In this document: positions 20,237-55,900 of the stretch, one piece after another
How positions within the stretch are numbered: position 1 is the stretch's first letter
Layout of the letters: each line of letters begins with the position of its first letter
NCBI GenBank assembly: GCA_947568835.1
Contig: OX387606.1
Location: 2,914,001-2,978,000 of the forward strand
Reading direction: 5' to 3'
Length of the DNA: 64,000 nucleotides
DNA from: Protonemura montana
Taxonomy: Eukaryota; Arthropoda; Insecta; Plecoptera; Nemouridae
Translations under genes and position numbers: made by a program
The notes under the pieces: generated by a model
Database searches by the model: none
What the model was told of the DNA's origin: nothing
What the model saw: only the letters and a program-made list of their open reading frames with translations

Positions 20237-22893
20237 ATGATGGACCTCCTGGTTACCAAGCTTCTTGCGTTGGCTGCTTTGGCTTCAGGCAGCTTGGCAC
20301 TTGGGCTTGCTCCTCTGCTGGCTCCTCGAGGCACAGGCATGGATTAAACTTGGTGGTGATTCTATTTTACTCATCCTCCAATTGAAAATCAGAGTAATTT
20401 TGACTTAAAAAATGCCAGACAGTCTAAAACTGTGTGCAACCAAAAATGAAGCATTCAAATTTCAAAAACTCTATTCTGTTGTTGAGGAAATTATGGTTTC
20501 TCTGAGTAGAAAAAGAAGTTATATTGTGAGGCAAGCAATGCCTACTGAATTAAAATTATGACTGAGCATTGACCATGCACTGTACAGCATTATTCTTGTT
20601 CATAATACAAAATAAACAAGCTAAAATTACTGTAGTGGGCAAGGTCGTATCTTGTGTTAAGCTGTGCCATGATTATGAAGGATTATGCAACACACAGTGT
20701 TTTCTCCTCCTGATTTTTTTGCATTGATTTCATTTGCCGGCCATGAACTATTTGCCCGTCGCTTACTGGACTATGCTTATAAACGCAACACTGGTCTATG
20801 TACGGAAAACTAGAAGCTAGATTTTGCTCCTTGTTTGCCTAGTTTTTTTAATTGAGGTTTGATGTTTTGGCTAAGAATAGTGACTCATTTAACAATTCTA
20901 TTTTAAACAATTGCCTTTCACTGGACGTTGTTTTGATGCTCAGATCAGAACCTATCACAGCGTCGCCTGGTAGTGCAATCGTTGGCCCTGTGCGCCGGTG
21001 CAGGTGTCCTCCTGGCCACCTCCGTGGCGCACATCCTGCCTGAGCTTCGTGCGCAGCTTCCTGTCGGGGCAGAGGTTGTTTTCTGTGCCGGCTTTTTCTT
21101 GATGCAGCTCGCGGAGGAGGTTGTGCTTTGGCTGCGTGGGGTGCGGTTTTCACGCAGGGAGCAAGCTGCTTGCACAGCCGAGGACGGTAATACAGCAGCC
21201 GTATTGTTTAAGGATAGTTCAGGTGAAGGTGGAAGGAAGGTTTTGGATGTGCACGGATGTGCAAGAATGGCAGGAAATATGTGTATGGCAGGAAACGATT
21301 TGATCTTCCTCTAAATTTTTCAAACTCTGAAACTATCTTTACCTGCGTTTCTTGAGCAGCGTAGAAAGGCATTATAATTCCTCATTTCATTTTCACCTTA
21401 AAAAGAAGATAATGGCTGGCCATCCAACCCGCTTATCAGATTCTGTCACCTTTTCATAAAAGGATCTCAATTTGTTAGTGTCACTTTAGTAGTTATTGCT
21501 GCAAAATATTTTATAAATACCTATATTAATAATTGAAATCTTATTTAAATTGTAAACGCTTGTAATTCGCGGGGTATTTTATTATTATCAACATTATAAC
21601 CGTCTCAAAAATTGATGCTCCAACGGGGACTCGAACCCCAATCTCCACCTATTGCGGGTGTTGCTTTAACCCATTGAGCTACTTGGACATTGGCTTTTAG
21701 AGACATAAATCATACATTGATTGAGACACAAATTGAGACATAAATCATACATCAAATGCACTAAAATCATCTCAAAAAGCCAGTATCCAAGTAGCTCAAT
21801 GGGTTAGAGCAACACTCGCGATAGGTGGAGATCGTGGTTCGAGTCCCTGTTTGGGCATCAATTTTTGAGACGTTTATTGTGTTCATAATAATACAATACC
21901 TATATTAATATTTTGAAAAGATTTGTGGCATTCTGTGTCAAAGCCGATGCCACTGTTTGGAGGCAGGGTTTTAGTCCTTCAATGTCTCTCGTTGCTTGGA
22001 CAGAGAGCAGCCCCCTGCTGACATCATCCGCCCCCTCGCCCACACCAGCAGCTCTTGGTCTTGTGGCAGCACTGAGCGTACATTCAGCACTGGAAGGTGC
22101 AGCGGTGGGGGTGCAGTCAACGGCGCCGCGTGTATGGCTGCTGGCAGCGGCGGTGGCGGCGCACAAGCTCGTTGTCTCACTCTGCCTCGGTATCGAACTG
22201 CGCCAGAGCTTCGGGACCAGGACCCATGCTGTCGCAGTCGCTGTCTTTGCGGGCGGCTGTGTAGTGGGCGGAGTCACAGGCGCCTTGGCACAGGTGCGAT
22301 TACGTGAAGTTGCGCTGAGTGCACTGGCATGTTGAGCCAGGATTTATAATGTCACTGATCAAATGGTTCCAACATGGAATTGGATGTCAACTCCATGGTT
22401 CCACAATCATACGCCGACAGCAAAAGTGGGAATTTTCTCTTGTCTGTCCTGAGTCAAAGAGAAATTTAGATTAAAGTTAACTGTCTCAATTGATTAACCT
22501 AACACTTCTCTGGGCTTGCAAAAAAATTTGTAAGTTATTGGTTTCTAGGATCTTCCTTGGACTGTGAGTTACAGTTACAGTGCTAGTAAAGAACCTGACA
22601 CTCAATTAGGAACCCTCGTCAGTAACGTGATGCAAAATTGCTTCTGTGAAACAACATACTTGAAACATGGCTTGGCGCTGATATTCACGAATCCGTTTCA
22701 GGCGAGCGGTGGAGGGCTCGCATGGCTGCAGGCGTTGGCAGGAGGAAGTCTGCTCTACGTGGCCGTGTCGGAGGTTTTACCACGCGAGCGCATAAGATTG
22801 GCTGGCCAGGCTTGGTGGGCGGGTCTAGCGCAGCTCGTCGCAGCAGTTGCAGGGTTTAACGTCGCGCTGGCGATGGCAACTCTAGGTACGTGA
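20237..22893 (+). CDS. SLC39A1: ZIP family zinc transporter, subfamily ZIP1/2/3-like (286 aa, 4 exons)
   Basis: Imports Zn2+ (or a related metal) across the plasma or an organelle membrane. Exons 20237-20336, 20944-21222 (or ending 21186), 22004-22293, 22702-22893; 287 codons including stop. The start ATG-ATG follows an in-frame TAG, so it is likely correct. Exon 1 encodes a hydrophobic first helix. Exon 2 has GVLLATSVAHILPEL and the third helix. Exon 3 holds the metal-path signature HSALEGAAVG and AAHKLVVSLCLGIEL, and exon 4 the last helices with SLLYVAVSEVLP. The His-rich cytoplasmic loop of many ZIPs is short here. The first intron seems to use a GC donor (CACAG|GCATGG), because no GT occurs before the in-frame TAA. 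A donor-like CTAG|GTACGT just before the stop leaves another 3' end possible. The ZIP-I grouping is sure; which of ZIP1, 2 or 3 is not. Confidence 0.85.
21536..21895. repeat. tRNA-like foldback element, copy 5, head-to-head tRNA-like units
   Basis: The left arm (GAAATCTTATTTAAATTGTAAACGC, GTATTTTATTATTATCAACA) is followed by a minus-strand tRNA-like unit ending near 21690. A short spacer and a plus-strand unit (about 21785-21858) follow, then the right arm TTTTTGAGACGTTTATTGTG. The two halves are near-complementary, so a transcript could form a long hairpin. It lies in the ZIP intron before exon 22004-22293. Confidence 0.8.
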
Positions 22894-26542: not shown

Positions 26543-29500
26543 CTAATCAGGCCGAGCCTGGCTTGCGAGTGGCTGCCTTGATTTGAGCTCGTCAGAGACT
26601 GCTCGTTGCCGTGACAGTAGCTCGCTGCTAGCAATCGATCTTCGTGCAGGCACCGTCTGCAAACAATGCAAGGCTTCGTTTAGATGACAACGGTTAGCAT
26701 TTTATTATTCGGAACACTACTACCCTCTCAAAAATTGATGCCCAAAAGAAGACTCGAACCCTGATCTGGGCATACATTTTTGAAAGGGTAGCAGAATCCC
26801 TAATAATAAAATACTTTGCGCATTGCAAGCATTTGCAATTTAAATCAGATGTCACGTAACAGTTAGCAAGTTAAGAGCGTTACTGTGGTATAGTATGGTA
26901 CAGTGGTACTGAGTTAACTCCTTCAACAAAAGGGCATGATGGTCTTTCTAGACAAACCAAGAGCAGCTCTTGACCTCATGGGGCCAGTGGATAACCGCAG
27001 CCATCTGGAATAGATTTCTATCACTAGCTCTCTCCATTCTCCATTCCATGACAATATCATTGTAACTGACAATGTAATTGTTTAACATAGTCTATTGCGT
27101 TACTTACAACATTATACACTCAAAAACCCAAACTACATTAAAAAATATTTGTATTAACAAACAAATAAACAATAATAGAAAATAACCCAATATCTACAAA
27201 ATCAAACTTTCTCCGTGTGGTGCTTTTATAGTCATTTGTTTTATACAATTTTGGATATCTGAATGTTATGACTTATGAATGTTTTAATGTAGATGTTCCT
27301 TGAAAACCTAACCACGGATAGGCAGGTAACACAAACTCAGAAATGAATATGCTGGTACTAGATTCCAGTCGACCCCAACAAAACGAAGCAAGGCGTATTC
27401 TGACCGGTTTTTTATTGCCGTCGTAGCCAGGTCCTGCGGCAGCTGCGACGGCTGGCTGGGGGATGTCGAGCAGCGGGACAAATCGGAAGAAGGCAGCCGG
27501 CCATGGCGCCATCAGCGCTAGCGAGGTGGCCGCACGCAACGGGCCGCAGCCCGCCTCGTAGCTTGCGTTGCGCAGGCCGCGGGAAGCCAGCGCCGGCCAT
27601 ACCGAACGAGAGACCAACGGCTTTTGAGGGTCCTAAAAAAAAAACGGAGGAATAAGCTTCGCTGACACATTTCTGATGAGTCTGGAAGGTTTACAATAAA
27701 TTGAACGCTAATAAAAGTATATTTAATGCGAAAAGGGTGCCAAGAGCCTTGGATATTTGATGTGGTGAAGAAGAAAAGTGAGAGGGAGCACAACTTATCA
27801 GAGAAGTAAATTGGCATTGTGTAGTGCATTTGTCAAGAAATTTCTAGAATTCCTGACATTTGGGGGACATTTCAAATGTTTCTCGCCCCTCCCCCCCCCC
27901 CCCTCCCTGACCACAGAGCCACCAACTTGCCCCTTCCCATCCTTATACTATCCCTCCACACCCCTTCACCCGATACCAGCGCAATACTCAACATTCAAAA
28001 GTAAAATCTATAAAACTGACAAAGGCAACTCGCCGAAACTTTAAAATTCTGGGAAATTCTCGGAATTTCTCAACAAGTGGACCACATGACGGCGATTTTG
28101 TTCTTTGGTAAGTTTATCCCTCCTTTAATTCTTCACCACATCAAAAATGTAACTATGATCATGCAGACCCTGACCAATCAGCCTGACCAAGTTCCTGATA
28201 TAACGTGAATTTGATCATACTGTTCCGTTTGGCATAAATATGTTCAATTAAAGATCAAACTACTCCGTGACAGTGACATTGCCACGCTGCTCTTCTCCTC
28301 AAAACATGCGCTAGCAATAGATTGGATATGCAAATGTTCTGAAGTGGTGAAGATCGGAGACTTTTGGAAAATAATAGGATTTAAATAACAACTCGAGTTT
28401 TCGGGATATTTTAAATCGGGTTGTTTGGGGAAGTTTCAACTCACCGCGATGGCGGCCATGCGGTCGCGCTCGCAGTTGAACAGGAACGTGTCGAAAAGGG
28501 TCACATGGCACGAGTCCCATAGCGCGACCAGCATCCGTTCTGAGAACTGGAACGCATCGGGAAACTGCCGTGTCAGCTGCCACACGCAGTGCAGGAACAC
28601 CTGTGGGTCACAAAACTTTGTCAGACTACACAGGGACAGAATTTCAAGGCCTAGAATGTTTTTGAGGCATAAAACTCGATAATTTCTTTTGTTATTAAAA
28701 GGAAGAAAAAATTATATTATACTTTATAATATGACCTGTAAAATCATTTGTCTTCTTTTTCACACTCCCTTGCCAAAACCAACTTCTTCCAGACCTCTTT
28801 CTCTTTCCTATTTCATTTTATTTTCCTCCTCTTTACTTTATACCCTTCCTTACCATATTTTACTCAAACATTGAGTTGACTTGTTTATGTTACCAAATGA
28901 ATTCACAAGACTAATTTTATTTCAACAAGAGTTTTTGTCAGATTCTGGGACCAGAACAGAAGTTAAAAAACATTTTATAACATTTTATAACATTTTAGAC
29001 TTGCAATCATAAATTCAAATGAGTTCTATGAACATAGCCTCAACGGCCAAACTGAATTTAACATGGAGAGATTTTGCTTTGTTCCTAGCGCTTGGTAAAT
29101 GAAAGTCACTCACGAGGAAGACTGGCGAGCGTTCTGTCTCGTCGCTGAGCACGTGAGCGAGCCGCGTGCAGAACGGGTGACCCAGTGCCACCCACTCCTT
29201 CTGGACCAGTGCTGCCAACCCACGTACTGTTCGGAATCGTTCGTCAAGCAGCAGCTGAGCCAGGCTGGACACCACTGCAGACAAGTCCCGCCCCTCGCCC
29301 TCTGTGCAAACCAATTATAGGGAAACCATGAGTTTTTCGTTGCTTTTTCATTTCTTGCTAAACTAAAGACGAAACGGTTTGGCGTGTTGAAAACACCGGT
29401 TCTCCTGAGATCACCGAAGTTAAGCAACACTGCGCTGGGTCAGGTATTGGATGGGTGACTATCATACACATGACCAGTTCTGTTCGAGAGAGAGGTTGGA

Positions 29501-32500
29501 GGGATGAAAGTTAAGTAGACTGCGCTGGGTCAGGTAAGGATGGGTGACCATCATACTCATGACCAGTTCTGTTTGGGAGAGTGGTTGGAGGGATGAAAGT
29601 TAAGCAACACTGCGCTGGGTCAGGTATTGGATGGGTGACCATCATACACATGAACAGTTCTGTTTGGGAGAGAGGTTGGAGGGATGAAAGTTAAGCAACA
29701 CTGCGCTGGGTCAGGTATTGGATGGGTGACCATCATACACATGACCAGTTCTGTTCGAGAGAGAGGTTGGAGGGATGAAAGTTAAGCAACACTGCGCTGG
29801 GTCAGGTATTGGATGGGTGACCATCATACACATGACCAGTTCTGTTCGAGAGAGAGGTTGGAGGGATGAAAGTTAAGCAGACTGCGCTGGGTCAGGTATT
29901 GGATGGGTGACCATCATACACATGACCAGTTCTGTTCGAGAGAGAGGTTGGAGGGATGAAAGTTAAGCAGACTGCGCTGGGTCAGGTATTGGATGGGTGA
30001 CCATCATACACATGACCAGTTCTGTTCGAGAGAGAGGTTGGAGGGATGAAAGTTAAGCAGACTGCGCTGGGTCAGGTAAGGATGGGTGACCATCATACAC
30101 ATGACCAGTTCTGTTCGAGAGAGAGGTTGGAGGGATGAAAGTTAAGCAGACTGCGCTGGGTCAGGTATTGGATGGGTGACCATCATACACATGACCAGTT
30201 CTGTTTGGGAGAGAGGTTGGAGGGATGAAAGTTAAGCAGACTGCGCTGGGTCAGGTATTGGATGGGTGACCATCATACTCATGACCAATCACAATGTGAC
30301 ACCACAATACAACACCATGACGGTAAATAGTTTTTCACCTTCCTTGGTTTACTACGGGGTAGTTACCCCCCGAGTGACAGGAGGGCAGTCTGGATAGAAC
30401 ACTGGTGGCGCGACCATCTGAGCCGAGATCCATATTGGTGGGTTAGTGTGCGTGAACTTTCAAGTCCACGCTAACCTTGATGAAATGTTGACTCTTTAGG
30501 TCCTTTTAAGGACCGCAAGTCAGTTTAAAGTTTAAACCAAGTAAATTTGTCACACCCAATACCAAGTGACATTAAGCCACATTTGAACTTTTTTAGTTGA
30601 AATCTTATTTAAATTGCAAACGCTTGCAAGGCACGGGGCATTTTATTAAACCTCAAATTGGAGTTACTCGAGATTGACAGGTTGTGACGTGGTATAGCGT
30701 CACTAGAATCAGAGTGACTGTATTCACAGCTCCTTGGTTCCACTCATTGGAGATCCATCATTCTCATCAAATACACTAAAATTGTCTCAAAAAGCCAGTG
30801 TCCAAATAGCTCAATGGGTTAGAGCAACACCCGCGAAAGGTGGAGATCGGGGTTCGAGTTCCCGTTTGGGCATCAATTTTTGAGAGGTTTATAGTGTTCA
30901 TATTAATAAAACACATTTGAACTATTTTTCGTCTGTCTCCCTTATGATCGGAATGTTCAGATTACATTTTTCCAATGGGTTGCGTTGCATACGCACCTTG
31001 CAAGACAACGGAGGTGCCGGCTTGCAGCGCAGTGGCGACATCATCTGCGCGTGCCAGGCATCGTGCAACCGTTGACAGCCACTGCGAGGCCTCGAGCAGC
31101 GACAGGTAGTGATTGTCCTGCGTCCAGAATTGACGCACACTCTCGGGGGCGCACAACTCGCGCAACTTCACGTAGCTAGTCTGCAAGCAATAGTTGGAAC
31201 TGTTATCTCGCAACCGGACGGTTTGGCGTGTTGGAAACACTGGTTCTCGTCAGATCACCGAAGTTAAGCGACACTGCGCTGGGTTAGGTATTGGATGGGT
31301 GACCATCATACACAGGACCAGTTCTGTTCGGGAGAGAGGTTGGAGGGATGAAAGTTAGTACAGCAACTTCACTCGCCTTGCTTATCAACCTCTCGACAGC
31401 ATGGATTTGTGGAGGAATCCTGTTGTTCGAGTTGTACCGTCCTTCGGAAGGGACGTTAAGCCGGTGGTCCCCTTGGTGCTCTTCGACAGGAGTAGGCTAC
31501 GTGCTGGCACCGGGTTTCCCCTCCTCCCTTCTAGGCTAGGTTAGGTTCATCATCATCCACTCATTCTCCGACGCCATTAGACCAGTGCCGCATGGCCAGT
31601 TGTCAAAACAGTGCATCGTTAAACACAAACACCACGGATCTCGCGGATTAAGGGCAAGGGAGTCAAGTGTGACGTAAAAGTTAGTAGAATTGTATTCAAT
31701 TGCTTTAAAATTAAAATAGAAATATATGTTTGAAATTGTATAATTATTTAAAAAGCCTCCTGATAAAAGAAGAAAAGTAACAAAAACTATTTGAACTGGT
31801 TTTTTAATGCTAAGTGAAGAACAACTAAATTTCCCAACTTTTCGTAACTTATACCTATTACTTTTTCAAGGGTAAGAGCTAAAGTAAAGAGGGTTAAGAG
31901 TAAAGAGTAAAGAGATTAAAGAGGCTACTTGGTTAATTGGGTAATTGTTATAATTTTGTGTGGTTCTTTTGTTATCGGAAAATTGTCAGGACTGCTCTTT
32001 GACGAAGTTTGAAGAAGCAGTTATGACAGCTCTCATGACAGTTTGACAACATTTTGACGAACGATGATGAAGTTTGCCAAGTCTAAAAGGAAGCCGAGGG
32101 TCAACCAGGGGCCGGCATGTATCCTGGTTCTGTCCAACAGCACCGAGGGTCAGCTAACTCTTAGGGCTGGTTTTTCAGTGGTCCCTTAAGAAACTAACAA
32201 TCGTTTCATTTGTTATTTCCTTGGCAACAACCAATCAGAAGATATTTCTTGTTTGTGAACAGTGAGTTAATTACTTGACATGTCACTGAAAAACCAGCGC
32301 TAAGTCTTCTCCAATGATACACTAGGTTGGAGCTGCCTCAGTTGAGCTCTTATGACAAAACTGGTCTAGCCGAGGAGGCAGCTAGAGTTTGGCAATGGAC
32401 AATGGTTCAACCTACCATTGTCGAAAAAAACCAAGGGCCTTGCACGTTCCGTCGACGCATAATCGCATAAAGAAGTGTGGTGTTATCGTTAGCGAGGGGT

Positions 32501-38353: not shown

Positions 38354-41300
38354 CTAGCTACTCTTGTGCGGCAGCTTCATGATGACCGTCTTAACCTCGG
38401 TGTAGTTGTGTAGTCCGTACTCTCCGAGCTCGCGTCCGTTGCCAGACATCTTGAACCCGCCGAACGGGGCTTGTGTGCCCAGCACGTTGTAGCAGTTGAT
38501 CCTGCGGTCAAGGAAAGACTAATTTAGTTACCAACACCCGGCAATCGTACACCGTTTTGCACGATATAAAGTTGGGTAAGATTGCAAATGATTTCCATCC
38601 AGGATCAACCTGTTTTGTTGTACAACTAAAAAAGCTCAGTTTCAAAGATTTCGTGGAAGAGTTCGAATAAAAGAAAAAATATAATTAAAAGATAACTCCA
38701 AAAATGGAGGATGTTTCTGGGCGAAGTCACCGCCATTAGAGTGTTAATCTATTTAATTTTGTTATTTCTCCCATTTGAGACTAGTTTACCCTTTATTAAT
38801 TCATTGATGCTAAACTTAACAATTAATAAACATGTATCAATATATTTAGTCGTAATTAATTAATTTTATAGGTTTGTTAAAAAGGTCGACAGCAAGCGGC
38901 ATCCAATGGCACCCACTGTTACCAAAAGTTGCAGGCTTGTTTGCTCAGCAGAAAGTTTAACATTAACATTGAATATACTTATAAACTCAATTGTAGCAAC
39001 GAGCAAGAACACATGTGTAACTTAATAACCTCTACCTACAGTAGAGTTGAGTACTGTGACATGGAAAGGTTTATTAATGGTAGTGGAGCGCTTCTAACCA
39101 GACAGTGCCGGCTCGCAGCCCCTGCGACAGAGTCATGGCATCGTCGATGTCCCGCGTGAACACCGCAGCCGCGAGGCCGTAGTCGGTGCCGTTAGCACGA
39201 TCGAGCAGCTGCTTGCGACTGTCAAACCGTAGGATCTGCTGGACGGGGCCGAAGATCTCGTCTCGTGCGATGCTCATCGAATCGGTCACGTCGGCAAACA
39301 CGGTCGGCTGAATGAAGAAGCCCGCGTCGCCGTGTTTTCCACCGCCTGCCACCAGTCGCGCGCCTTGCTTGCGGCCGCCATCGATCATCTCGAGGATCTT
39401 GTCTCGCTGCTCAGCATCCACCTAAAATCATACGGTGTTGCAGAAAGAAACACATAACACTAGCATTTTATCCTAACTAGCTAACTTATTATTAGTAAAC
39501 AGTTTCTACTAGTAATACTATTTTTTAATGATAAATTAGGAGGTTGGGAACTGAACAATAATTGGACTCTCTGGTAGTAGCTATGTGTTCTTGAACTGAA
39601 ATAAATAGCACTTGGACACTTACCATTATTTGGACTAGAAAATTAAATGGATGGGAGGCTCTTTGGTAGCTTTAATGGCAGGTCGCCTGTTTCCAGTTAG
39701 TTAAATCACCTTAACTCCGTACAGGTTAGTGTCACAAGAAGATTGTATCGGTGGAAATACTGTATCTGTATAACGGAAAACTTGAACCAGGAGCTCAATG
39801 AATGTCACCGCTTCAGTGAGTTAAGCGTATGTAAGGTGTAAGCTAGTAAAAGTTAGGCATTGCTGACTGCGGCACATTAACAAGGCACTGCACCTGTGGG
39901 CCAGACTCGTTGTTGGGGTCAAACGGGTCGCCGACGGTTCGCTTCTTGGCGCGAAGCGCGCTCTTCTCCACGAACTCATCGTAGATCTCGGCCTCGACGA
40001 ATGTGCGCGAACCAGCACAGCAGCACTGGCCCTGAGGGACGACAAACGTTCAATCTTCGACTACAGCCTCCGAAACTTCCTTATCTTAAACCCCATCTAC
40101 TCCTGAGATGGATACCTATCCTCCACGACCAATCCCACATAGAACCACATGTACTGGCACCACTTTCAGTGCACAAACAATTTTAATTATTATATCTATA
40201 TCTTACTTTATTTACCTCTATATTTATATAATTATTCTCTCATTTCCTAACTGTAATCATCAAAAATATGAATATACATCTTGTGAAAATATTACTGTTT
40301 ATCCAGGCTAGTCAACTGACATAACCTATACAATAACTAGAGCCACGATTATATGGTGATGCGCGAAATCGCGAATTGTTCTTATCTCTTGTTATTCTTA
40401 CAAATGAGTGCCATTCATTGAATTCCCAACTCAAATATGCAAGAAGCTCATCGCGACAAAACGCGAAATTCACGAAAAATCATCCATAACAACAAAATCA
40501 ACTATTTTCGAAATGAGCCTTTTCCCATCCAATTATCTTAAATTTCAGTAATCGGTTTTTTTTTCATTTTTATCAAACCATATTTCACGGAAAATAAATA
40601 AACAAATAAAATAACCGGTTTGTTTTTATGCTAAATTAAGAGATAATGAAGCTATTTCACTGAAATATGTGTATTTTGCGAAATAGCCACTTATTTCCAT
40701 GCAAAATATTTAAAATGTTTATTTTATCTCTCTAAACACACATTTCCATGAATTTGTCATATTCAGGTCTGTTTCTCATCAAATGCTGTCAACATTCCTA
40801 AGCTTAGGGGGTAGAAGTAGTGGGGCAAAATGTTTGCAGTAGGAAACCATTGCCATTAGTTGGCTGAATCTTCCCCTCCTTGCCATGTGAGCACCAGCAC
40901 CACATGCATTCAGTCTATATAGAGATTAGCTGGGATTTCAAATTTCAATAGGGTGTAATAAATCTTTAGACTTTTGAGGATCAAACAAAGCAACTCTTTG
41001 TGAGTGATGGATATATTTTGATGTGTGGAATCTGGAACACCAGACTTGTCTGGGAGAAAAAAGACAATCTTGCAAAGTATGTTGTTAGTACCAGGCAGTG
41101 GGTCTCATTCAAATTCTAATGGATATAAAAATCTCAAACTTCTCATTTGCAGTTCTGACTTAGCAAACTATTTGGGCCCCAGTGAACAGTGTTGATGCAG
41201 AGAGGTTTTTTAGGGAAGCTACCATTGAAACTTGTTCAATGTTCAGTTTAACAAGTGGTAGGTGTCGCTCTTACTGCCATACAATGTATTTCATGGTGGC

Positions 41301-44300
41301 ATTTATGTAAAATATTGATTTGTATTATTAATTTTGTTCCAAGTCCCTAACAAATACCGATGTTGAGGACCTACACTAAATATTTGCTTTATTGTAATTA
41401 TTATTGATCACTTCTTTATTAAAGATCCCAGTGCTTACCCTAAATCTTCATTCCTTTCGAATGTAGATCGCAAAACCCCTTTTTTCTATTTAGCTATAAA
41501 CGCTAAAATTCAAATAATTAGCACTAAAATTTCGATAAAACTAATGCTAAAAACACGTTTTTTCTTTTTTTCGTCACCTATGTCTGAAATCTGTTATAGA
41601 CATGAAATTCTGTACTTATTCCATAACACCGCCATAACACCGAAATCCAAAAAGCTTACCACGAAATTATCGAAATCATAACACCGTAAAATCTTGGCTC
41701 TAACAATAACTATGTGATCGTCCTGAGTTTGAAATTAATAAATACAAAAAAATACAAATACAACACCTGGGACGTGGCGTTGGACAGAGCACTTGGGTTA
41801 CTTGTCCATATATTGTCAAAATTCAGATGCCTCTATGGTAAATTGTATTCTTCTAGCAAATGTAGAAAATAGCAGTAGGCACCATGTTAAAGAAGAGTCC
41901 GAAGTGGGCCTGTTCAACGGCATGGTCAACGTCTGCGTCTTTGAGCACGATGTTGGGTGACTTTCCGCCGAGCTCGAGCGTGACCCGCTTCAAGTTGCTA
42001 GCGCCTGCGCCTTGCTGCACCAATCGGCCAACCTGGAATCAAAAGTCATCAGCATCATGAATATAATAACCAGACTGGGCTTTCAAATCTTTCTAGCTGT
42101 TATCACCCTGTGTTTATCATAACATTAATCGTGAATGAATTAAAAATATAGAGTAAATACTCAAGTGTATCCTTGTGTTTGGCTGTATTATCCAATAACA
42201 GTAATTTAGCTGCCAAAGCAATTATTTTGTAATTATTTTATTTTTTCATCCATTTATCAAGACAGGTAGAAAACATCATGTCTGAGGCTTAAGACTTTAT
42301 AAAATTATCTACCGCTTCTTTTTCATATTCCTTAACAAAAACCAACTTCTTCCATACTTCTTCGTTCAACCAACTTGCCAGTTTCATTTTTTTCTTATGC
42401 TTAGTGCAAGTATTCCACAACATTTCCATGCCAGCATGTCCATGCCAACAGAAAAAGGGGTGGGAGTTACCAACCTCTGTACTGCCGGTGAACGCAACCT
42501 TGTCGACAAGTGGGTGATGCACGAGTGCCGCACCGGCATCGCCAAAGCCGGGCACAACGTTCAGCACTCCGGCCGGCAGCCCAGCCTCCACCGCCAGCCG
42601 GGCAACGAACAAAGCCGTCAGCGGCGTCTGCTCAGCCGGCTTCAGCACCACCGTGTTTCCTGTCGGAAGCAAACACACGCAATCGACAATGTTTCTAGCA
42701 TCGGAAACCTGGGCAGGGGGTCATTTGGACAAAGTCCCCTCAGTGTTCATATCACTGCAATAAGATCTATCTTGTTTGTTTGTTAGGACAACAGAATCAT
42801 CAAGCAGAGATTTAAATTATTAGGATGAAATCTTATTTAAATTGCAAACGCTTGCAATGCGCGGGGTATTTTATTGTTAACAACACTATAACCGTCTCAA
42901 CAATTGATGCCCCAAACGCGGACAAGGGTGGACAGGGTGGAGATCGGGGTTCGAGTCCACGTTTGGGCATCAATTTTTGAGACGGTTATAGTGTTGTTAA
43001 TAATAAAAAAAAAGAGATTTACATTATTGTTTTTTTTTGGAAGTTTTTCGTTTGCGTACATTCCAACTGTTCATGTTTCTACGAGGATTTAAAAGTGTTG
43101 CACTGACAGGAAAAGGTTGTTTTGGGATCAAATGTCAGGATACTCGTTTGATTGGTGATCTGGTTTCGGTCATAGTAGAGCAAGGATTGTTTGTGAAAAG
43201 CAATTCATTGTGGGTTCAACACTGGGCATAAGATAAGCAAAACTCTATCTTTAATTTTTTTTTTTTGTTTTCTTACCTATCTACATTTAAATATAAGATT
43301 GCATTTTCAACAAAGCTCTTCAAATGGATGCATTTTTAATTGTTTTTAAGGCTTGCCGAGTTATCAGTCATGATGATTTCAGGTCAATTTAGCAGCCGGA
43401 AGCTTTAATCTCACAACCCTCAAGTGAAACTTCTTTAATCTCTCGGTACTCGAAACACTCACAGATAAGACCTATTAGAATATCATAGTTACAACAAGAA
43501 TTGCAGAGCTTGAGAACCTGCTTAGCTACTATACTATCATCTGTCTACAAAAGCAATCTCACCTTGAACTGGGTATCAACCAAAAGCTTCAACAAATATT
43601 ATTCTCCATATTACAATTTTCAAGGACATGATTATTTTAGTGGCCTTGTGTTTATACAAGTAATCCTACTAAGCCCTTTACTCTCCCCATTGCTCATTGC
43701 ACTCACCCGTGGCCAGTGCAGGCCCAATCTTCCAAGCCAACATCAGCAGTGGGAAGTTCCACGGGATGATTTGTCCGCAAACCCCCACTGGCTCGTGTCT
43801 TGTGAACGCAAAGTAAGGCCCATCCAGTGGGATCTGCAACCTCATAACACTTTAGATACTTAAGCTGGGAAGACAATTTTGGGAACGTTAGTGCCTCGGA
43901 CTCTGACTCTCGCAAAAAATTCTCACCGTCTGACCGTGGTTCTTGTCAGCCCAGCCAGCATAGTAGCGTAGCACCTTCACGGCAGCTGGTACATCAAAGC
44001 CGATTGAAGTGGCGTATGGTTTGCCGTTGTCCAAAGTCTCCAGGCTCTGTTCATTGAAACAACAATCATGTCTGTAACTGAAACTGTAGCAGATACAACC
44101 GTGTTGACTCTTGTGTTCTGCTTACCGCAAGATACTGTTGGTTCTGCTCGATGAGGGCAGCTAGTTTCAAAAGGATTAGGCCCCGGTCCGATGCATCCAT
44201 TGACCTCCAGGGAGAGCCAAGCTTGAATGCATCTCCGGCTGCCTTCACAGCCAAGTCAATATCGGCCTGTGCAAGAAAACAACAGTAAATTCATATTTTA

Positions 44301-44853
44301 AAATTTACAAACAAAAAAAGATAACTACCGTACACCAGATATAAAATAATATTTAGCAAGCCTACCTTTGCTCCATGTTGCACTTCAGCTATAGAGGCAC
44401 CTGTGGAAGGGTTGACAGTTTGAAAAGTCTTGCCTGAGACAGACTTGTGCCATTCGTTGTTAATAAAAATCTAAAATAAAACGGATTATGGAGTAAGTGA
44501 TCTTTCTTGAAACAACAAACAGGGTAGGAGAAAGAATAGAGGTGTCACAAACTCATTTTTAGCCAGTTCAGGTACAGAGTGCCAGAGTATACCTAAAGAA
44601 GTATTTGTTGGAATTGCAATGTATCAATAAAATACAACAAATAACACGGGGCACTAGGTAAGTATACACATGCTCAGTATAAGGCAATCGGCCTAAGTGG
44701 CCTCGGCCTTAAGTCCCACCCACATACACACACGACACCACTCACCCCATTGTGGAGAATTTCAGGACGAGTGATGGGCTCCGGAAGGGCTGAATAGGAG
44801 CGCGTTGAAACTTTCAGGGTCTGAGCCCCCGTCTTGACGAAAGCACGCAACAT
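38354..44853 (-). CDS. ALDH2: Mitochondrial aldehyde dehydrogenase, ALDH2 type (514 aa, 10 exons)
   Basis: NAD-dependent oxidation of aldehydes to acids in the mitochondrial matrix. Exons (complement): 44746-44853, 44366-44470, 44126-44266, 43927-44046, 43707-43833, 42475-42659, 41883-42032, 39894-40031, 39099-39421, 38354-38501; phases agree, 515 codons, close to human ALDH2 (517). The N-terminus, [20 protein letters not shown], is an Arg/Lys/Ser/Thr-rich presequence without acids. Key parts are [14 protein letters not shown], the cofactor segment [39 protein letters not shown], catalytic base Glu282 in [11 protein letters not shown] and nucleophile Cys316 in [36 protein letters not shown] and the C-terminus [15 protein letters not shown] follow. 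The 34-residue spacing between Glu and Cys matches human Glu268/Cys302. No active-site residue is missing. It forms tetramers in the family. Confidence 0.97.
42828..43010. repeat. tRNA-like foldback element, copy 8 (near-perfect arms)
   Basis: The left arm is GAAATCTTATTTAAATTGC, AAACGCTTGCAATGCGCGGG, GTATTTTATTGTTAACAACAC, TATAACCGTCTCAACAATTG. It faces the right arm CATCAATTTTTGAGACGGTT, ATAGTGTTGTTAATAATAAA. Only a B-box half of the tRNA-like unit remains between them. The matching GTTAACAACAC/GTGTTGTTAA variants in both arms suggest that the arms were homogenised together. It lies in an ALDH2 intron. Confidence 0.8.
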
Positions 44854-45091
44854 ATTTTCCGCCGGAGAAATCGACGTGAACTAGCGATAACCGACTAGGA
44901 TACGACTAGGAGCTGCAAGGGCGACCGGAGCGGCTTCTTGCGACCTTGTAAAATGCAGTCTAGAAGATTATGTAAATGAAAAGATAACTTCCCAACGTCA
45001 ACACGAGGATATATTTGCAAGCTTCGCCTTCTCACACAATCAGCAATATACGCGCACTTCGGCCCCTTAGGCGTCACGAGGTCACACTCAC

Positions 45092-46926: not shown

Positions 46927-49900
46927 TCAGGACTGAGATGCCCGGAGCCGTCGACCGGTGAAAGTGCCGACCAGCGACTTTAGAGTTGCACCGAGACCCC
47001 GGCCGGGGGTGGTGGCGCCGCCCCCCGCTGCTCCTCGCCCTCCTGCGCCCTGGGTTGGCATCAAATCACACATATATCAAGGTATTCATGCACAATCAAT
47101 CTCTTCAAAAGCAATCTGTAAGAGATCTAAATAATAGCCTCTCGGCACACTATTTGCATTGAACTTTAAGTACCCTGTGCATTTTCCCACCTATGTACGC
47201 AAACTTAAGGCATCCACTATTTAGAGTCTTAGCTTTGATGTTGATCTTTCTCTGGAGCTAACGAGCCTCTAGCCTCTAACAAGCCGGAGCTAGCAGGCGT
47301 CCTTTGTAAAAAACCCTCTACCTAAACTAAAGCGTTCTCAAGTAGCAAGCTAACGTTCTGAGACAGAAGAAGTGTGTCGTCTTTCAAGCAGTTAAGTTAA
47401 TTTTTTAAAACTACCACAAAGTATTTCACAGGCAATGCATTTTTCTAGTTGTCACAGCATTAAGATTTTGTCATTCTTAAGGCACTCAGAAACTAATCCA
47501 AAAAATGTGTGTTTGTAAAATGTCAGATTTTACAACTGAGTGTGCAAAGAAAAATAAGATTTCTCTCGTTGAAAATTTCACTGTTCATGTGAACGATGTC
47601 GATCCTGCCTTTAGTTGGGCATCGTCCCTACATTGACTATCTCTAAAACCTGCGCTAATTAACAGGGTAGGTGGTAATGATTCTTGTAGTTACACGGTGT
47701 TTGCGCATTTGAGAAGAATTTGAAGGACTTAGCTCTGCCATTTGCTGGGTGCAGATGGCAAAGTCATCTTCAGATTTTAGGACTGCAAACCTTTCATGAA
47801 ATATCAAACACCATGAAACCACAAGATTCATTATTATTATTATTAGTTGTGGTGTTTAACGACGCACTGTTTTGACAACTGGCCCTGCGGCACTGGTCTA
47901 ATGGCGTCGGTGAATGAGTGGATGATGATGAGGATGATGATGAACCTAACCTAGCCTAGAAGGGAGGAGGGGAAACTTGGTGCCGGCACGTAGCCTACTC
48001 CTGTCGAAGAGCACCAAGGGGATCACCGGCTTCACGTCCCTTCCGAAGGATAGTACAACTCGAACAGCAGGATTCCTCCACAAATTCATGCTGTCGAGAG
48101 GTTGATAAGCAAGGCGAATGAAGTTGCTGTACTAACTTTCATCCCTCCAACCTCTCTCCCAAACAGAACTGGTCATGTGCATAATGGTTACCCATTCAAT
48201 ACCTGACTCAGCGCAGTGTTGCTTAACTTCAGTGATCTAACGAGAACTGTTGATTCCAACACGCCAAACCGTTCGGTCACAAGATTCATCTCTCTCAAAA
48301 CCTCAGACAAATAAGAGTTATTTATTTTGCAATAATTTCTTGCACCGATGAACTACCTGTGGGTGAGCATCCAGACACTTCTGATAGCGCAGCTTGCAGG
48401 CCGCCTCCACAGTCTTGCAGAGCGCGCCTGACGACGGCTCGCAGTTGAACACGTGCGCCACGAACAAGTCTTGCGCCGTGTGCACTATGAAGCCGCATTG
48501 CTTGACATCGCGCCCGATCCCCAGGAAAGACAAGTACCGCACGCGACATTCAGCCACTAGCGATCCATCCTCCTGCGACAAACGATGAGGGTCAAGCTTC
48601 GAGGGGTCAAGCTTAGGACGGTCAAGATCGGGGCTTTACTTCAGCTGCTGGGCCACCTGAGGCCAGATCCACAATGATGAGATTAAGTTTAGCCCTTATC
48701 AACCTGGAAATAAGTAGTTATCACTATGGTAACAAACCCTGGAAATCTGGAAACACCATCTGTTATTTAAGAAAAACTATTTGAACTGGGTTTGACCATC
48801 TGTGATTGGCTGATCATCTTAAAGCTCCAATATTAAACTTAAAGTCTCCTTTGTGGATCTGGCCTCTGGAAAGGTAATTTGCTTATGGTAGAAATAATTT
48901 GCGGTGCTGGTAGGAGATATGATGAAATTGTCTACAAAAAGTGGTCATCCGTGGGGTTCATTGATTTTATGAGTCTGTGATAGCAGCGTTTCGTAACAGA
49001 TTGGAGGAATCTACTGAGCTTCTTATGTGCTGAGATCTATAGTCAAAGTAACAATTTGAAGAAATTGTTAACCGAATGTTTTGGGGGTATTTAGAGTCTG
49101 TCGAACTCCAAAACTTCGATTCAACTTTCTTTCTACTAGGTGTAAGTTCTTATATGATGACTATTTTATGCTTGTGGAAATGAATCAAACCAAGCAAAAT
49201 CAGGATAAAAAAAGAGATAAAGCAAAGAAATGCTGCAATAGTTAAAAGCTTACAGAGCCAAAGTAGATAAAATGTTGGTTTTTAGACTCATGTCTACTTG
49301 ATTTAGCCTTAGCACTAGTTTTAACAACAGCCATTTTTTCCATATACATAATTGGTTAGTTAGTAAAATACACCAATTTGTTCAGGAATTTATTTCAGAA
49401 ATTACAAAATATGTTAGTTTGTAAGTTATTGACCCTGAGTATTTTCTTTAGATGCATTTAGGATGCTTGAACTTGGTAATTGTTATAATTTTATGTGGTT
49501 CTTTTGTTATCGGAAAATTGTCAGGACTGCTCTTACTCTTGATAAAGTAACAGGTACAAGTTACGAAACGTCGGGAAATTTAGTTGTTCTTTACTTAACA
49601 TTCAAAACCCAGTTGCAATAGTTTTTGTTAAAACTAGTGCTAAGGCTAAATCAAGTAGATATGAGTCTAAAAGCCATCATAGATAAAATGTATCTGACGC
49701 TCTTGCGAGTTGCCACATTTGTGAGCACTGACCGGCCGAAGGATGGAGATCATGGAGGGAGCGACGGCTACGTTGACGGAGAGCCAGCGCTCGGTGGGCA
49801 GCGTGGCAACTAGCAGCGCGATCGCGTCGTTGAGCGTGTCAACGCCGGTGGCGCGAGTCACTTGTGTCGAGCCCAGGTACTGCGCCCGGAGAACCTTGCG

Positions 49901-52900
49901 CGGCTCTTCCATCGGAGTCGGGAACGACTGGCCTGGGGGCGGAGTCAAGAGAGGGCGCTAGCGAAACGTTTCCTAACTGACGACATTCCGTTGTCCTCTA
50001 GTGACCAGGCCAACGCTTGGGCTGACAAAAGATTCTTAACTCGACCCAAGCGATTGTCCACGACTAGACTTTGAATGCAGCTCGTCAGTTTTTTTCAACG
50101 TTTTCACACAAACATGAAACAAAAACACTGTCAGCGAACGCTGATTTTGCTTTTGTTGTCCATCCGTGAGTTAGCAAGTTTGCTATCACATGTTTAACAC
50201 CCGCAGATCTGCCTTCACTGAAATAATTTGTTTTATTTGCTGCCTCAGATACTGCCTTATACCAGAAAAGGCAACATAAATGCCATTTTACACTCCCATC
50301 TGTCAAAAAATATGCCCATGTGGCAATTTTACCCCTATTTATTCTTCTGCAATAAGGAACAGGAAAAGAGGGAAACAACTTGCAAACGTTGACAAATCTG
50401 GTTGTGATGCAGATTGCACCAGCTCTTTCAACTTTGGTGCGTTGCATTCCTTCTTTCTTCTTCCCTATTACACGTTCCAGTCCTTTGGCACTAATATCAT
50501 CCAATTCAAATCATTCTCATCGAATACACTAAAATTGTCTCAAAAAGCCAGTGTCAAAGTAGCTCAATTGGTTAGAGCAACACCTGCGAAAGGTGTAGAT
50601 CGAGGTTTGAGTCCCCGTATGGGGATCAATTTTTGAGATGGTTATAGTGTTCATAATAATAAAATATCACTAACTTTTTTCTTTAAACTTATTTTAACGT
50701 ATCCCAGTTTTTCCCAAAACACAGTTCATCAGAGCAGCCTCAGAGCAGCTAATATCCTTGCTTGGTTTCCCTGCGTACCTTGCTGCGTCGGCTGCGTGAG
50801 CGGTTGCGTTCGGTGCAGCCTTCGCGCCTGCGTGGGCAAGTCTGTGGGCCGAGCGGCTCGCGAATCCTGCGCATGCGCGAGGCTGCGTTCGATCATTATG
50901 CGCTTGCAGATGTCACGCAGCGTGTTCGCAATGGTTCGCGCAGGAATGTCACAACGGAACACGTGGCACATGTGCCTGCGGGTCGCGCGGTCGCGAGCCA
51001 CGTACGCAAAGTCTCTGCAAAGGCGTAATTATACTTTTAGTCAAGGTTTTTTTTATTTCCTTCAAATGAATGTTCTGAAAATGGTTTTGCTCTGTTTGGA
51101 GTTGGTTCCGGTCCTTAAAAGGACCAGCAAAGGATCAGCTAAAGACCTTTTTAGGACCGTTTCCACTTTCAACATCAAACAACGGCTCTGAACCACTTCG
51201 CCTTACCGTTCTTACTTTCAGCAAAAGTCGATCTTACTACACCATGCAAGATATGCTGGTCCTTGGACTAACTTCTGATTAGAAGTTGGAAATAAAGCAT
51301 TTGGAAACCCAAGAAGAAATTATATACTCATAGAATCTGTGCTCATAGCCTAGGGTAACCAAGATAATAACTTGTTAATAATTAATAAATGTAATTACAT
51401 AATACTGTTGTATAATGCTGTGACATGCATTCAGCTTGGTAGTTTTTAAGTCGGTAAAATCTCAAAACGTGCGTAGTATAGTAGTGCAGATTTAACGGTG
51501 TTAACTGGAGGAATGATGTAAAGATTCCTTTTTGCGGTTTGTTCCGTTCTTCTTTGAGCAGCAAGTGACAATGCTCTAGTATGGTTCAGCCAACGAACAT
51601 ATATGTCCATTGGTTTTGCCATTCTGAGGTAATCCATATATGTTTGATGGATTTAAGATTATAGATAGAGGCAATCTCTACATCTTTGGAGACATACATT
51701 AGGTGTGCAATTTAATCGTGAGAAACACAGTTATTAAAGCAATGGAGCAATGACCATTTCAAAACAATCTCAAAACTATTTTCAGTTTTTCTTCAATTTT
51801 AGCAAGGAGTTGGGACATAGGAATAATTCTTGAAGAAGGTTTGTAGGAAAATTAAGCTTTTAAGTGTGTTTGAGGATAAAGTAAAACTTTCTACCCAAGA
51901 AATAATAGAAAAATACAAAAGATTCTATAAACTAGCACAAAACATGAAGACATAAAGCATGCAGCAAAAATAGAGCTGTGCAAGATAGGGACAACAATCT
52001 AGGCATTAAATCAGGTTTAAACTTCAAGGAGGGAGAACTGGATGCGGCACAAAGCGGGAGCGTTCAACGCAGGCAGCGAAACGTGATTCCGTTTACCTCT
52101 CTCTGTGCCACCACCGCAGCCGCCACCGAGGGAAAGAGACAAACAGGTTAGCCACCACCGCTACGCTAGCTGAGTACAGGTACACCAACACAACACAAGG
52201 AGACGAAACGGGAGCAATTTGACAGTAACAATCGCACGAAATCATTTATCGGAGTAAAGTGCTGTCCTTGCAATGCGTTCACCTAACTCAACTATTAAGA
52301 CAGAGAAATGCAGACAGAAAGCGTTTAGGAACATTGCCGGTGCTTTCACTGGCAATATTTCTTTGAAATAGTCTGTTTTTAATTGTATTATTGTGAAGTA
52401 ATGCAATTTAGTTTAAGTTGATCCGATTTTTATGCCAAGAATGCGATCATCTTAGGAGAATCACCCACAAAAGTAACACTGCACCTATTAGCTGATCACA
52501 ATCGCAGGGACAGCATTATATGCTTAAAAGCCGACCTGATATTGCAACATTCTAGTTCAGCGAGCTTCAATAGTTACATTGCACGTACAATTCTAATCAA
52601 CATCAATTAACAAGGGCACATATCAAACAAACACACACTAATGCTAACATCAGAAACATTGAACATCTCGACTCATTTTAATTTGAGATAGGTGACAGAA
52701 TACATATCAAAGACTTTGGTGATTCTTCTACATTTCCTTACTTCCACTACAGTTTTTCACCATAAGAATTGTAGAAGTTCAATGGTCAACCACACATTTT
52801 AGCAATGGTATAAGCTGCCATTTTCAACTGGCCTTTTATGGTGAAATAATTATGTAAGATAAGGTACGTAAACTAAAGATCTGTAGCTAAATGGCCGGAC

Positions 52901-55900
52901 TATAGCTAGGGCGAGAGGAGACCGCAAGTCGGATTGTTGCTCACCTGCCGTTGTCCCTGCCAACTCCCCAGACGCGAATCGTGTGAATCGGCTGCGTATT
53001 AAGTCCAGCCAGGTTGTCAGGATCGACCAACTTCAGGGCACCGTCGTCCAGGTCCATGAACAGCTCCTGCCGTGGTAGAAAACATCCCCATTGATACGAG
53101 CTCACGACTTTCACGTTGCTATTGGTCCTGATACTACTTTCTCTGGCTTTCAAAAGGCAAGGGCAGAGACTAACATTGACTGTTAACTCAGTACTGCAAG
53201 TATTTTTGAATCTCATTTCAAGAGAAGAAATCATCAATTCAAAACCCTTAGAGATTTAGACTTGATAGTTAACACTAGACAACGATCCATTTGTACCTTC
53301 AGTGACATTAGTAAGCATTTTAGTCAACTCCAAAACTACAAAAGCATTCAAATTTTTCCAGAGTCGGGGCTGCAACCATTAACTGTAGGAAGTTGCAACA
53401 CCGTACAAGCGAAGGCATGAACACAGCAAAATTGAGTGCCTAGACAGTTTGACCTAGATGTTAAATAATATTAGACGGCAGATTCCGAGCAGTCCAGAGC
53501 AAAGATAAAGTTTCGCAAACCTTTCCATCGCCCCAGCGTCCGACTACGTCCAGTAGGTCGTGCCTGCCAAGTGACAGGTCCACGATGCACTTGTTCACGG
53601 CGCGAGACGACCGCTCTGGCGTCAGGTCCAGCTCGGAGATCTCCACCCAGCCGAGCGAACGGACCGCAAACCGAACTGCTCCGCTAGAAGCACTGAAACA
53701 GTTTCGTATTTCAGTTTCGTGTGAACCTAATTTTTTTGGGTTCTTGAATGCTATGTAATGAAGCGAGCTACTTATTGGGCAAAGTTTACTTCTGGAGTGT
53801 TCCTAAGAAACTGAAAGCCTTGTCCATGGCTTTTATAGCCTTCCATAGCTTCTTTCTTGTCCATAGTCCAAAAACGATGATAGAAAAGAAAACTTTATAC
53901 GTAATATTAACCATTTAAGCCACCAGCTGGAAAACTCTCAGCAATTTTTTGTGTCTACAACAGATGAACTTTTTGTACCACAGTTAGAATTGGTAAAAAT
54001 GAGTGCAGGAAGTCGTGAAACCATAGCGGCTAGTAAACACACTAGTGTGCTTAACTAGGCATACACAATCGGAAGAGCAACTGAGAAGGGCTTCCGAGGA
54101 AATCTCATGTCAATTCGAGAAGGTTTCGCGCTCGACTCACGGAAGTGTCTGAGAGGGCAGCTGTACGGGTGCAGGCGGCGGTTTCTCCGGGAAGCTGCGC
54201 GGCCTGCGGGACTCGTCTCGAGAGCGCCGCCCATCGAGCTCCCAGCTCGTTTGGCTGCGTACGACGCCGGGGGCATCACCCGGCGCTGGCGGAGCGACGG
54301 CGCGACCTCGCACGTCTGGCTGCGCTCGGGTTGGAGCCTCGCGCTGGATCGTACCGCTCTTGATGTGCCAGAAGTACGGCCCGTCATTGTCTGCAGAATC
54401 AGATATGCTAATGAGGGGAAGTGTCCTGATGCGTTGACATATAGGTATGTGGATTTTAGTATTTAACTATGAAACTGATGCAATGGTACATCCTTTGACA
54501 AACTTTGACAACAATATGGGTTAGTGCAACACCCACAATCGGTAGAGATCGGGGTTCAGAGTCCCCATTTGGGCATCAATTTTTGAGACGGTTTTAGTGT
54601 TCATAATAATAAAATACCCAGCGCATTACAAGCGTATGCAATTGAAATAAGATTTCATCTTAATATGCAACACCTCTATATCAAAATAAATAGTTGTGGG
54701 AATTTTAACAATAGGGAAAGCTTAAAAGCCAGTTCTTTGGCACCCAGAAGTATGGCAGTCATCAAGTTATTTACAGAATATGCTAAATAAAATGAGTATT
54801 CAATTGATTAGCATGCATTATAAACTATTGTACTCATGCTAGGACTGACTAAGTACGGTGAAAGTTTGATGTACCAGTGTTGAATACTGGAAGGCAAGGC
54901 ATGTTAGTCCCATCGAAGATGCACAGAGGAGCCAAAGACTGATCTGAGAATGCAGGTAAGTAGCCAGGTATTGAACCCAATAAAACCGGGAAAAATGCAT
55001 CATGACTTACCTTCGTGGCGTTCCCAGCCGGCCGGCAGCGTAGCCTCTCCCCCCTCGTCGGGGGAGTCAGGAGGCGAGGGGGTACCGGGGGGACTCCCCC
55101 CTTCCTGGTACTTCCCCTCCTCCTCGTCGCGGGAACCCTCGTCCTCCCCAACACATGACCTGGAACCATGGCAACCGACACGTCAGAAGACCAGCTTAGC
55201 AGCGGCAGCGTTGCAGGATTAAAATTGCGTCTTCAGGCACACTGGCGGCTTAAAACATCAAAGACTGGACACAAAAAAAAAGCGGAGTTCATCAATCTTC
55301 TTTTCTTTCTCATCAACTACTGTGGGCACTTTTGAACCACTGCCATTAGACCAGTGCTACAGGGTTCACTTCACTTGTCTTGCTTTTCAACCTTAAAAGC
55401 GGCTCTGCAGGGCCACTAAGCAAATCTTGCTGAGTCCATTTCGTAACCACATCAATGCACTTCGTCACTGCTAAAAAGTTGACTGTAAGTTACTGGACCT
55501 TATTTGTTCACTAGCTTTTACTGGTAGCTTACTGGAGACAGTAAATCCAGTAAGTTTTTGAACACCCCCAGTATTTACTGTTTTTGCAATGGATTGGACC
55601 CACCAGTTGAAATAGTTGACCATGAAGTCGTCTTGCCACATTAACGTAAAAGCCCTTATGGAATTATGTTACAAGGATTCTGTGGAAGCAACCACTTGTT
55701 ACCGTGGACTGTTCGTAAAGTATTGTACCTAACATGTTGCAGTGACCAGGCCTTGGTGCTGTTGACCAGGTACATGCTTGTGATAGCACTAGAGTCAGTC
55801 ATCATGAGCATGCAGGTAACAATTAAGTCTGTTACCCTGTTATAAAATGCTACCTGCTAGACCTAATAAATGTCTCGCTTCAGAGTGAAATTTTTCCCTC

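Follow-up and report, generated by a model that had tools for sequence, protein, structure and literature searches.

In mammals, a 6-bp miniexon of Fe65 encodes Arg-Glu in the PTB1 domain and is included in neurons only (PMC3296194). Fe65 isoforms 2 and 3 are missing E462 and R463 owing to the loss of this mini-exon 9 (PMC8304848), and its inclusion leads to stronger Kat5/Tip60 binding (PMC8911335). The zebrafish apbb1 microexon was among 21 picked for neural inclusion, regulation by srrm3/4 and conservation in human (PMC12626424). Exons that depend on the eMIC domain follow a code: AG is excluded over a long zone, UGC lies close to the 3' splice site, the pyrimidine tract is rich in UCUC and the branch point is a strong CUAAY; in the fly, their splice sites are also weak and their flanking introns short (PMC8797185). 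In Drosophila Srrm234, the eMIC exon is a distal alternative last exon and neuronal (PMC8797185; PMC10551640). The fly and mouse programmes have almost no exons in common and are described as almost completely rewired, with four eMIC exons in equal positions and convergence thought likelier for all of these except EndoB (PMC8797185). Fe65 has been inferred, from Drosophila and with a call for more study, to be lost in arthropods (PMC8304848). Our literature search found no report of an Fe65 microexon outside vertebrates, though one may be in print.

Here we describe a predicted six-nucleotide exon, AGAGAG, in a 64,000-nt stretch of arthropod DNA (the window). Judged from its genomic sequence, the Fe65 gene of this arthropod very probably contains a real, alternatively spliced microexon that is the homologue of mini-exon 9 in vertebrate APBB1, and its regulation is probably neural.

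The host gene is Fe65/APBB

The exon ends were picked by eye on the minus strand and then checked for splice-site ends. The features identified, in the order of transcription, were:

55011..55046, minus strand: end of the exon with the first half of the WW domain (ATLPAGWERHE), its start not fixed; Pfam, ends checked
54141..54390, minus strand: exon with the second half of the WW domain (DNDGPYFWHIKSGTIQREAP); by eye, ends checked, Pfam
53521..53692, minus strand: exon with the N-terminal part of PTB1 (FAVRSLGWVE...GDGK); by eye, ends checked, Pfam
52945..53066, minus strand: upstream exon, middle of PTB1 (ELFMDLDDG...GRDNG); translation, Pfam
50779..51014, minus strand: downstream exon, end of PTB1 (DFAYVARD...); translation, Pfam
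49733..49932, minus strand: exon with the first half of PTB2; by eye, ends checked, Pfam
48357..48572, minus strand: exon with the second half of PTB2; by eye, ends checked, Pfam

Two of five single-exon peptides, the first halves of WW and of PTB2, had no Pfam match, but the joined peptides matched three domains that follow one another in the gene, WW (5.5e-5), PTB1 (1.2e-27) and PTB2 (1.5e-9), the WW score of 23.5 bits being slightly below the Pfam cut-off of 26.9. The best solved-structure match of PTB1 was the APBB1 entry 3d8d (1.7e-46), and the six best for PTB2 were all APBB1, APBB2 or APBB3 entries. The last PTB1 exon is encoded at one locus in the genome. With WW followed by PTB1 and PTB2 within one gene, APBB structure matches and a single locus, the host gene is, on its predicted protein, Fe65/APBB. 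This single locus leaves no paralogue or haplotype copy for comparison, and a scan of bacterial and archaeal contigs for relatives gave 129 pattern matches, none from a relative. Downstream of Fe65, the exons of an aldehyde dehydrogenase gene were observed at 39074-44880 on the minus strand (PF00171, 7.9e-35 for one exon; the others by eye).

A predicted six-nucleotide exon in the PTB1 intron

The intron that follows the upstream exon runs from 52944 to 51015 on the minus strand (1,930 nt) and splits a codon in phase 2 within PTB1. It is bounded by the 3' end of the upstream exon, GGCAG/GTGAGC, and by the start of the downstream exon, TTGCAG/AGACTTTGC, which in turn ends at AGCAAG/GTACGC. Within the intron, the minus strand at 52104-52091 reads AG/AGAGAG/GTAAAC, placing the hexamer at 52102-52097 in the context ...GGTGGCACAG/AGAGAG/GTAAACGG... 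and leaving introns of 842 and 1,082 nt on either side. The features of this site were:

52147..52151, minus strand: branch-point-like CTAAC, beginning 47 nt upstream of the acceptor AG; motif scan
52129..52146, minus strand: pyrimidine tract CTGTTTGTCTCTTTCCCT containing UCUC; motif scan
52116..52118, minus strand: UGC motif, beginning 14 nt upstream of the acceptor AG; motif scan
52103..52104, minus strand: 3' splice site AG (CACAG), the first AG after a 56-nt AG-free zone; sequence
52097..52102, minus strand: predicted six-nucleotide microexon AGAGAG, adding Arg-Glu to PTB1; sequence, frame, 3d8d alignment
52091..52096, minus strand: 5' splice site GTAAAC, with A at +5 and hence not of the strongest form; sequence

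The original prediction held that an acceptor, AGAGAG and a donor adjoin on the transcribed strand and that inclusion stays in frame to give R-E-R, and both points were borne out. Translation of the joined exons gave ...WGVGRDNG-RER-DFAYVARD... with the frame kept on inclusion and GRDNG-R-DFAYVARD, also open, on skipping.

Probable homology with the vertebrate mini-exon

The inclusion form aligned without gaps to the Fe65 PTB1 structure 3d8d, which we take to be human, with GRDNGRERDFAYVARD over GRDSGRERDFAYVARD and RER included. In the skipped form, a two-residue gap appeared exactly where the microexon would insert. Six nucleotides encoding Arg-Glu are thus found at GR^DFAYVARD. The candidate resembles mammalian APBB1 mini-exon 9 in its length of six nucleotides, its place in PTB1, its residues and its whole-codon effect, a likeness judged on length, position and residues, and differs in that its host is a pancrustacean arthropod.

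The identity of the host was read from contig C34, a 15,885-bp mitochondrial genome (frames under code 5; protein genes named by eye). Its gene order is I -Q M nad2 W -C -Y cox1 L(taa) cox2 K D atp6 cox3 G nad3 A R N S E -F -nad5 -H -nad4 -nad4L T -P nad6 cob S -nad1 -L(tag) -rrnL -V -rrnS, from 24 mitochondrial tRNAs called by ARAGORN with two extra ones inside cox1 (Trp-cca and Leu-aag) left out. This order, which places tRNA-Leu(UUR) between cox1 and cox2, is the pancrustacean (insect-crustacean) ground pattern. Nuclear copies of cox1 were observed on C4 (5760925-5762262, 5776811-5777755 and 5394498-5394635), with pieces on C3, C12 and C16. One nuclear copy is full-length with a score equal to that of the mitochondrial gene, and because this equal-score copy lies on C4, the contig of the window, the mitochondrial contig belongs to the same animal. 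The original prediction had further proposed that AGAGAG is the homologue of the vertebrate Fe65 miniexon and that the exon is present outside vertebrates; the match in residues and position to the solved PTB1 supports the former, and the pancrustacean gene order together with the cox1 copy on the window's contig supports the latter. Both suggest that the microexon probably originated before the insect-vertebrate split.

An arthropod Fe65 gene bearing a microexon of identical residues contradicts the inference of loss in arthropods made in PMC8304848. The finding matters because PMC8797185 held convergence to be likelier for all shared exons but EndoB; the Fe65 microexon would be a second candidate ancestral exon beside EndoB, in the APP-Tip60 pathway.

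The acceptor carries the eMIC cis-code

All four motif features of the eMIC code are present at the microexon's acceptor: the AG-free zone extends over 56 nt, the pyrimidine tract contains UCUC, and both CTAAC and UGC occur. Of 93 AGs tested in the intron beyond its first 100 nt, one, the microexon's own, combined UCUC and UGC with a CTAAY in its AG-free zone; 43 of 29,954 background AGs (0.14%) did so, a background that takes in the window and the candidate. The thresholds were chosen after the sequence had been seen, and the features themselves come from PMC8797185. Five other Fe65 acceptors were examined, and none had CTAAY in its AG-free zone or the cis-code. The flanking introns (842 and 1,082 nt) are not short, being longer than those of fly eMIC microexons, a fly-based criterion that is weak for another genome. 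The site therefore resembles the eMIC-dependent neural microexons of fly and vertebrates in its CTAAY, UCUC tract, UGC near the acceptor and long AG-free zone; it differs in that Fe65 lies outside the four exons shared by fly and mouse, and neither apbb nor Fe65 is named in the main text of PMC8797185.

A candidate Srrm234-type gene in the same genome

A profile search of the genome with PF15230 (SRRM_C) at E<=0.001 gave no match, which we attribute to an intron that splits the domain. At E<=10, the two best of 9 matches (0.38 and 0.59), each singly below the cut-off, were neighbours on contig C1, on the same strand, in the right order and 2.1 kb apart. Splicing at AG/gtgagc...cag/TGCTCGC joined them into RRGSPSFLDRRRITSARKRPIPYHRP, and the spliced peptide scored 61.6 bits (1.1e-16) on PF15230 against a cut-off of 27, placing an eMIC-coding gene in this genome. 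Its features, in the coordinates of locus L010 and of C1, were:

L010, exons ending 7858 and 5710-5536 (C1, about 13,433,858 and 13,431,710-13,431,536), minus strand: end of the eMIC gene
L010 7286-7193, minus strand: candidate proximal last exon, cag/CCTGAAG...CGCTAA, in frame to its own stop

The candidate proximal last exon sits between the two eMIC exons, and a split eMIC domain with a proximal alternative last exon has been described for holometabolous insects. At the acceptor of the eMIC exon itself, CTAAC and UGC are present and UCUC is absent. Two exons upstream gave no Pfam match over the cut-off (best 0.027, MAGE). The N-terminal domain of Srrm234 is PF08312 (cwf21), and the gene is a candidate Srrm234-type gene whose identity rests on its eMIC end. 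That this genome encodes the eMIC domain, in a gene with a candidate alternative last exon, is a further likeness to known eMIC-dependent microexons. The SRRM4-like programme postulated in the original prediction is supported by this gene end and by the cis-code at the acceptor, which suggest that the Fe65 microexon is probably driven by the eMIC system.

Alternative explanations

An AG, a hexamer and a GT could adjoin by chance within a long intron and never be spliced. GA-rich runs do occur, and the microexon is itself a GA-repeat, an easily arising type of sequence that counts against it; the 13-nt core YAGAGAGAGGTAA alone was found 19 times in the genome compared with 20 for its reversed control, neither depleted nor in excess. 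We counted AG, any of the 8 hexamers encoding R-E-R in frame, and GT on both strands of the window plus 20 x 10 kb. There were 13 occurrences in 528,000 strand-bases, from which 0.048 are expected per intron, with 1 seen. Six of the 13 lie in one 90-bp tandem repeat, one is the candidate and six are unrelated (about 0.02 per intron), so only about 0.02-0.05 would be expected per intron by chance. A Markov-1 simulation of the intron yielded at least one such match in 24 of 5,000 runs. None of the other 12 matches had an AG-free zone of more than 20 nt or CTAAY within the zone. The 258-Mb genome contains the pattern CTAAC-N30-50-CAG/AGAGAG/GTA twice, one of the two being the candidate, and the reversed-pattern control once. 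With the three cis-elements at just 0.14% of AGs, the product of the two frequencies is below 1e-4 if both are independent. A chance match was rejected on the hexamer, cis-element and combined-pattern counts, with the caveat that the cis-code thresholds were fixed post hoc, and we regard it as very unlikely.

A real microexon might also have been gained separately in the arthropod and vertebrate lines, in the same intron. PMC8797185 favoured such convergence for three of the four positions that fly and mouse have in common, but here it must yield the same length, site and residues, and of the 4,096 possible hexamers only 8 specify R-E-R in frame; we consider it improbable. The site could instead be a recursive-splice (ratchet) site or tandem acceptor, with AG/GT at 52098-52095 allowing two-step removal of the intron and leaving no residues in the mRNA. 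An upstream pyrimidine tract and an AG that runs directly into GTAAAC fit this reading. The intron is just 1.9 kb, the first AG past the branch-point motif lies 6 nt earlier and the stretch between encodes the exact residues of the solved Fe65, all of which make recursive splicing extremely unlikely.

Proposed mechanism and a possible hairpin

We infer that the predicted microexon is spliced, that its inclusion is restricted to neurons and that it affects binding. In most cells its tiny size, together with the G-rich stretch that separates its pyrimidine tract from the AG, would lead to skipping. In neurons, an eMIC-containing Srrm234 isoform may aid U2AF/SF1 at CTAAC-UCUC-UGC-AG, leading to inclusion of AGAGAG. 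Inclusion would add Arg-Glu between WGVGRD and DFAYVARD of PTB1 and, by analogy with mammals, would tune the interaction of PTB1 with partners including Tip60/KAT5.

Local folding, considered post hoc, pointed to an additional element:

52089..52146, minus strand: possible 15-bp hairpin, 4 of 15 pairs G-U

Its arms would pair the pyrimidine tract at 52146-52132, unbroken, with 52103-52089, a segment spanning the acceptor G, the whole microexon and the donor region. Local folds of 67 and 59 nt had z-scores of -2.5 and -2.3, with 3 of 200 shuffles equally good in each, and folds over 125 and 141 nt had no excess stability (z -0.02 and 0.07). Among 1,768 AG-N6-GT places, only the microexon site reached 15 bp. 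When 1,101 other upstream pyrimidine tracts were paired with the microexon, 1 reached 15 bp or more, as did 6 of 2,000 shuffles of its own tract. This longest-helix measure was devised after the fold had been seen, and the complementarity of UCUC and GAGA supplies part of the pairing for free. The predicted hairpin is an extra hypothesis, unproven, and we offer it as a lead. On a fuller reading, the Arg-Glu microexon would be one of very few ancestral bilaterian neural microexons, its residues kept since before the arthropod-vertebrate split, and the 15-bp hairpin would gate it by hiding both splice sites until the eMIC complex opens them. We put this forward tentatively and find it, taken whole, rather doubtful.

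Repeats in the window

The 90-bp tandem repeat lies at 29417-30287 (9.7 copies), and part of its unit (GTTAAGCAG...TGGATGGGTGACC) seems to resemble the end of 5S rRNA. Six tRNA-Ser-like loci, on both strands (1735-1807, 3985-4059, 7929-8003, 8209-8284, 21784-21859 and 30799-30874), look like tRNA-derived repeats, not genes; the seventh listed tRNA of the window is a tRNA-Leu at 21616-21689. Inside the contig, at 7319-7380, there is a degenerate array of TTAGG, the arthropod telomere word, with 12.4 copies and a 71% match. A tandem array of an 86-bp unit was observed at 5844-6601, with 89-96% matches in two overlapping rows.
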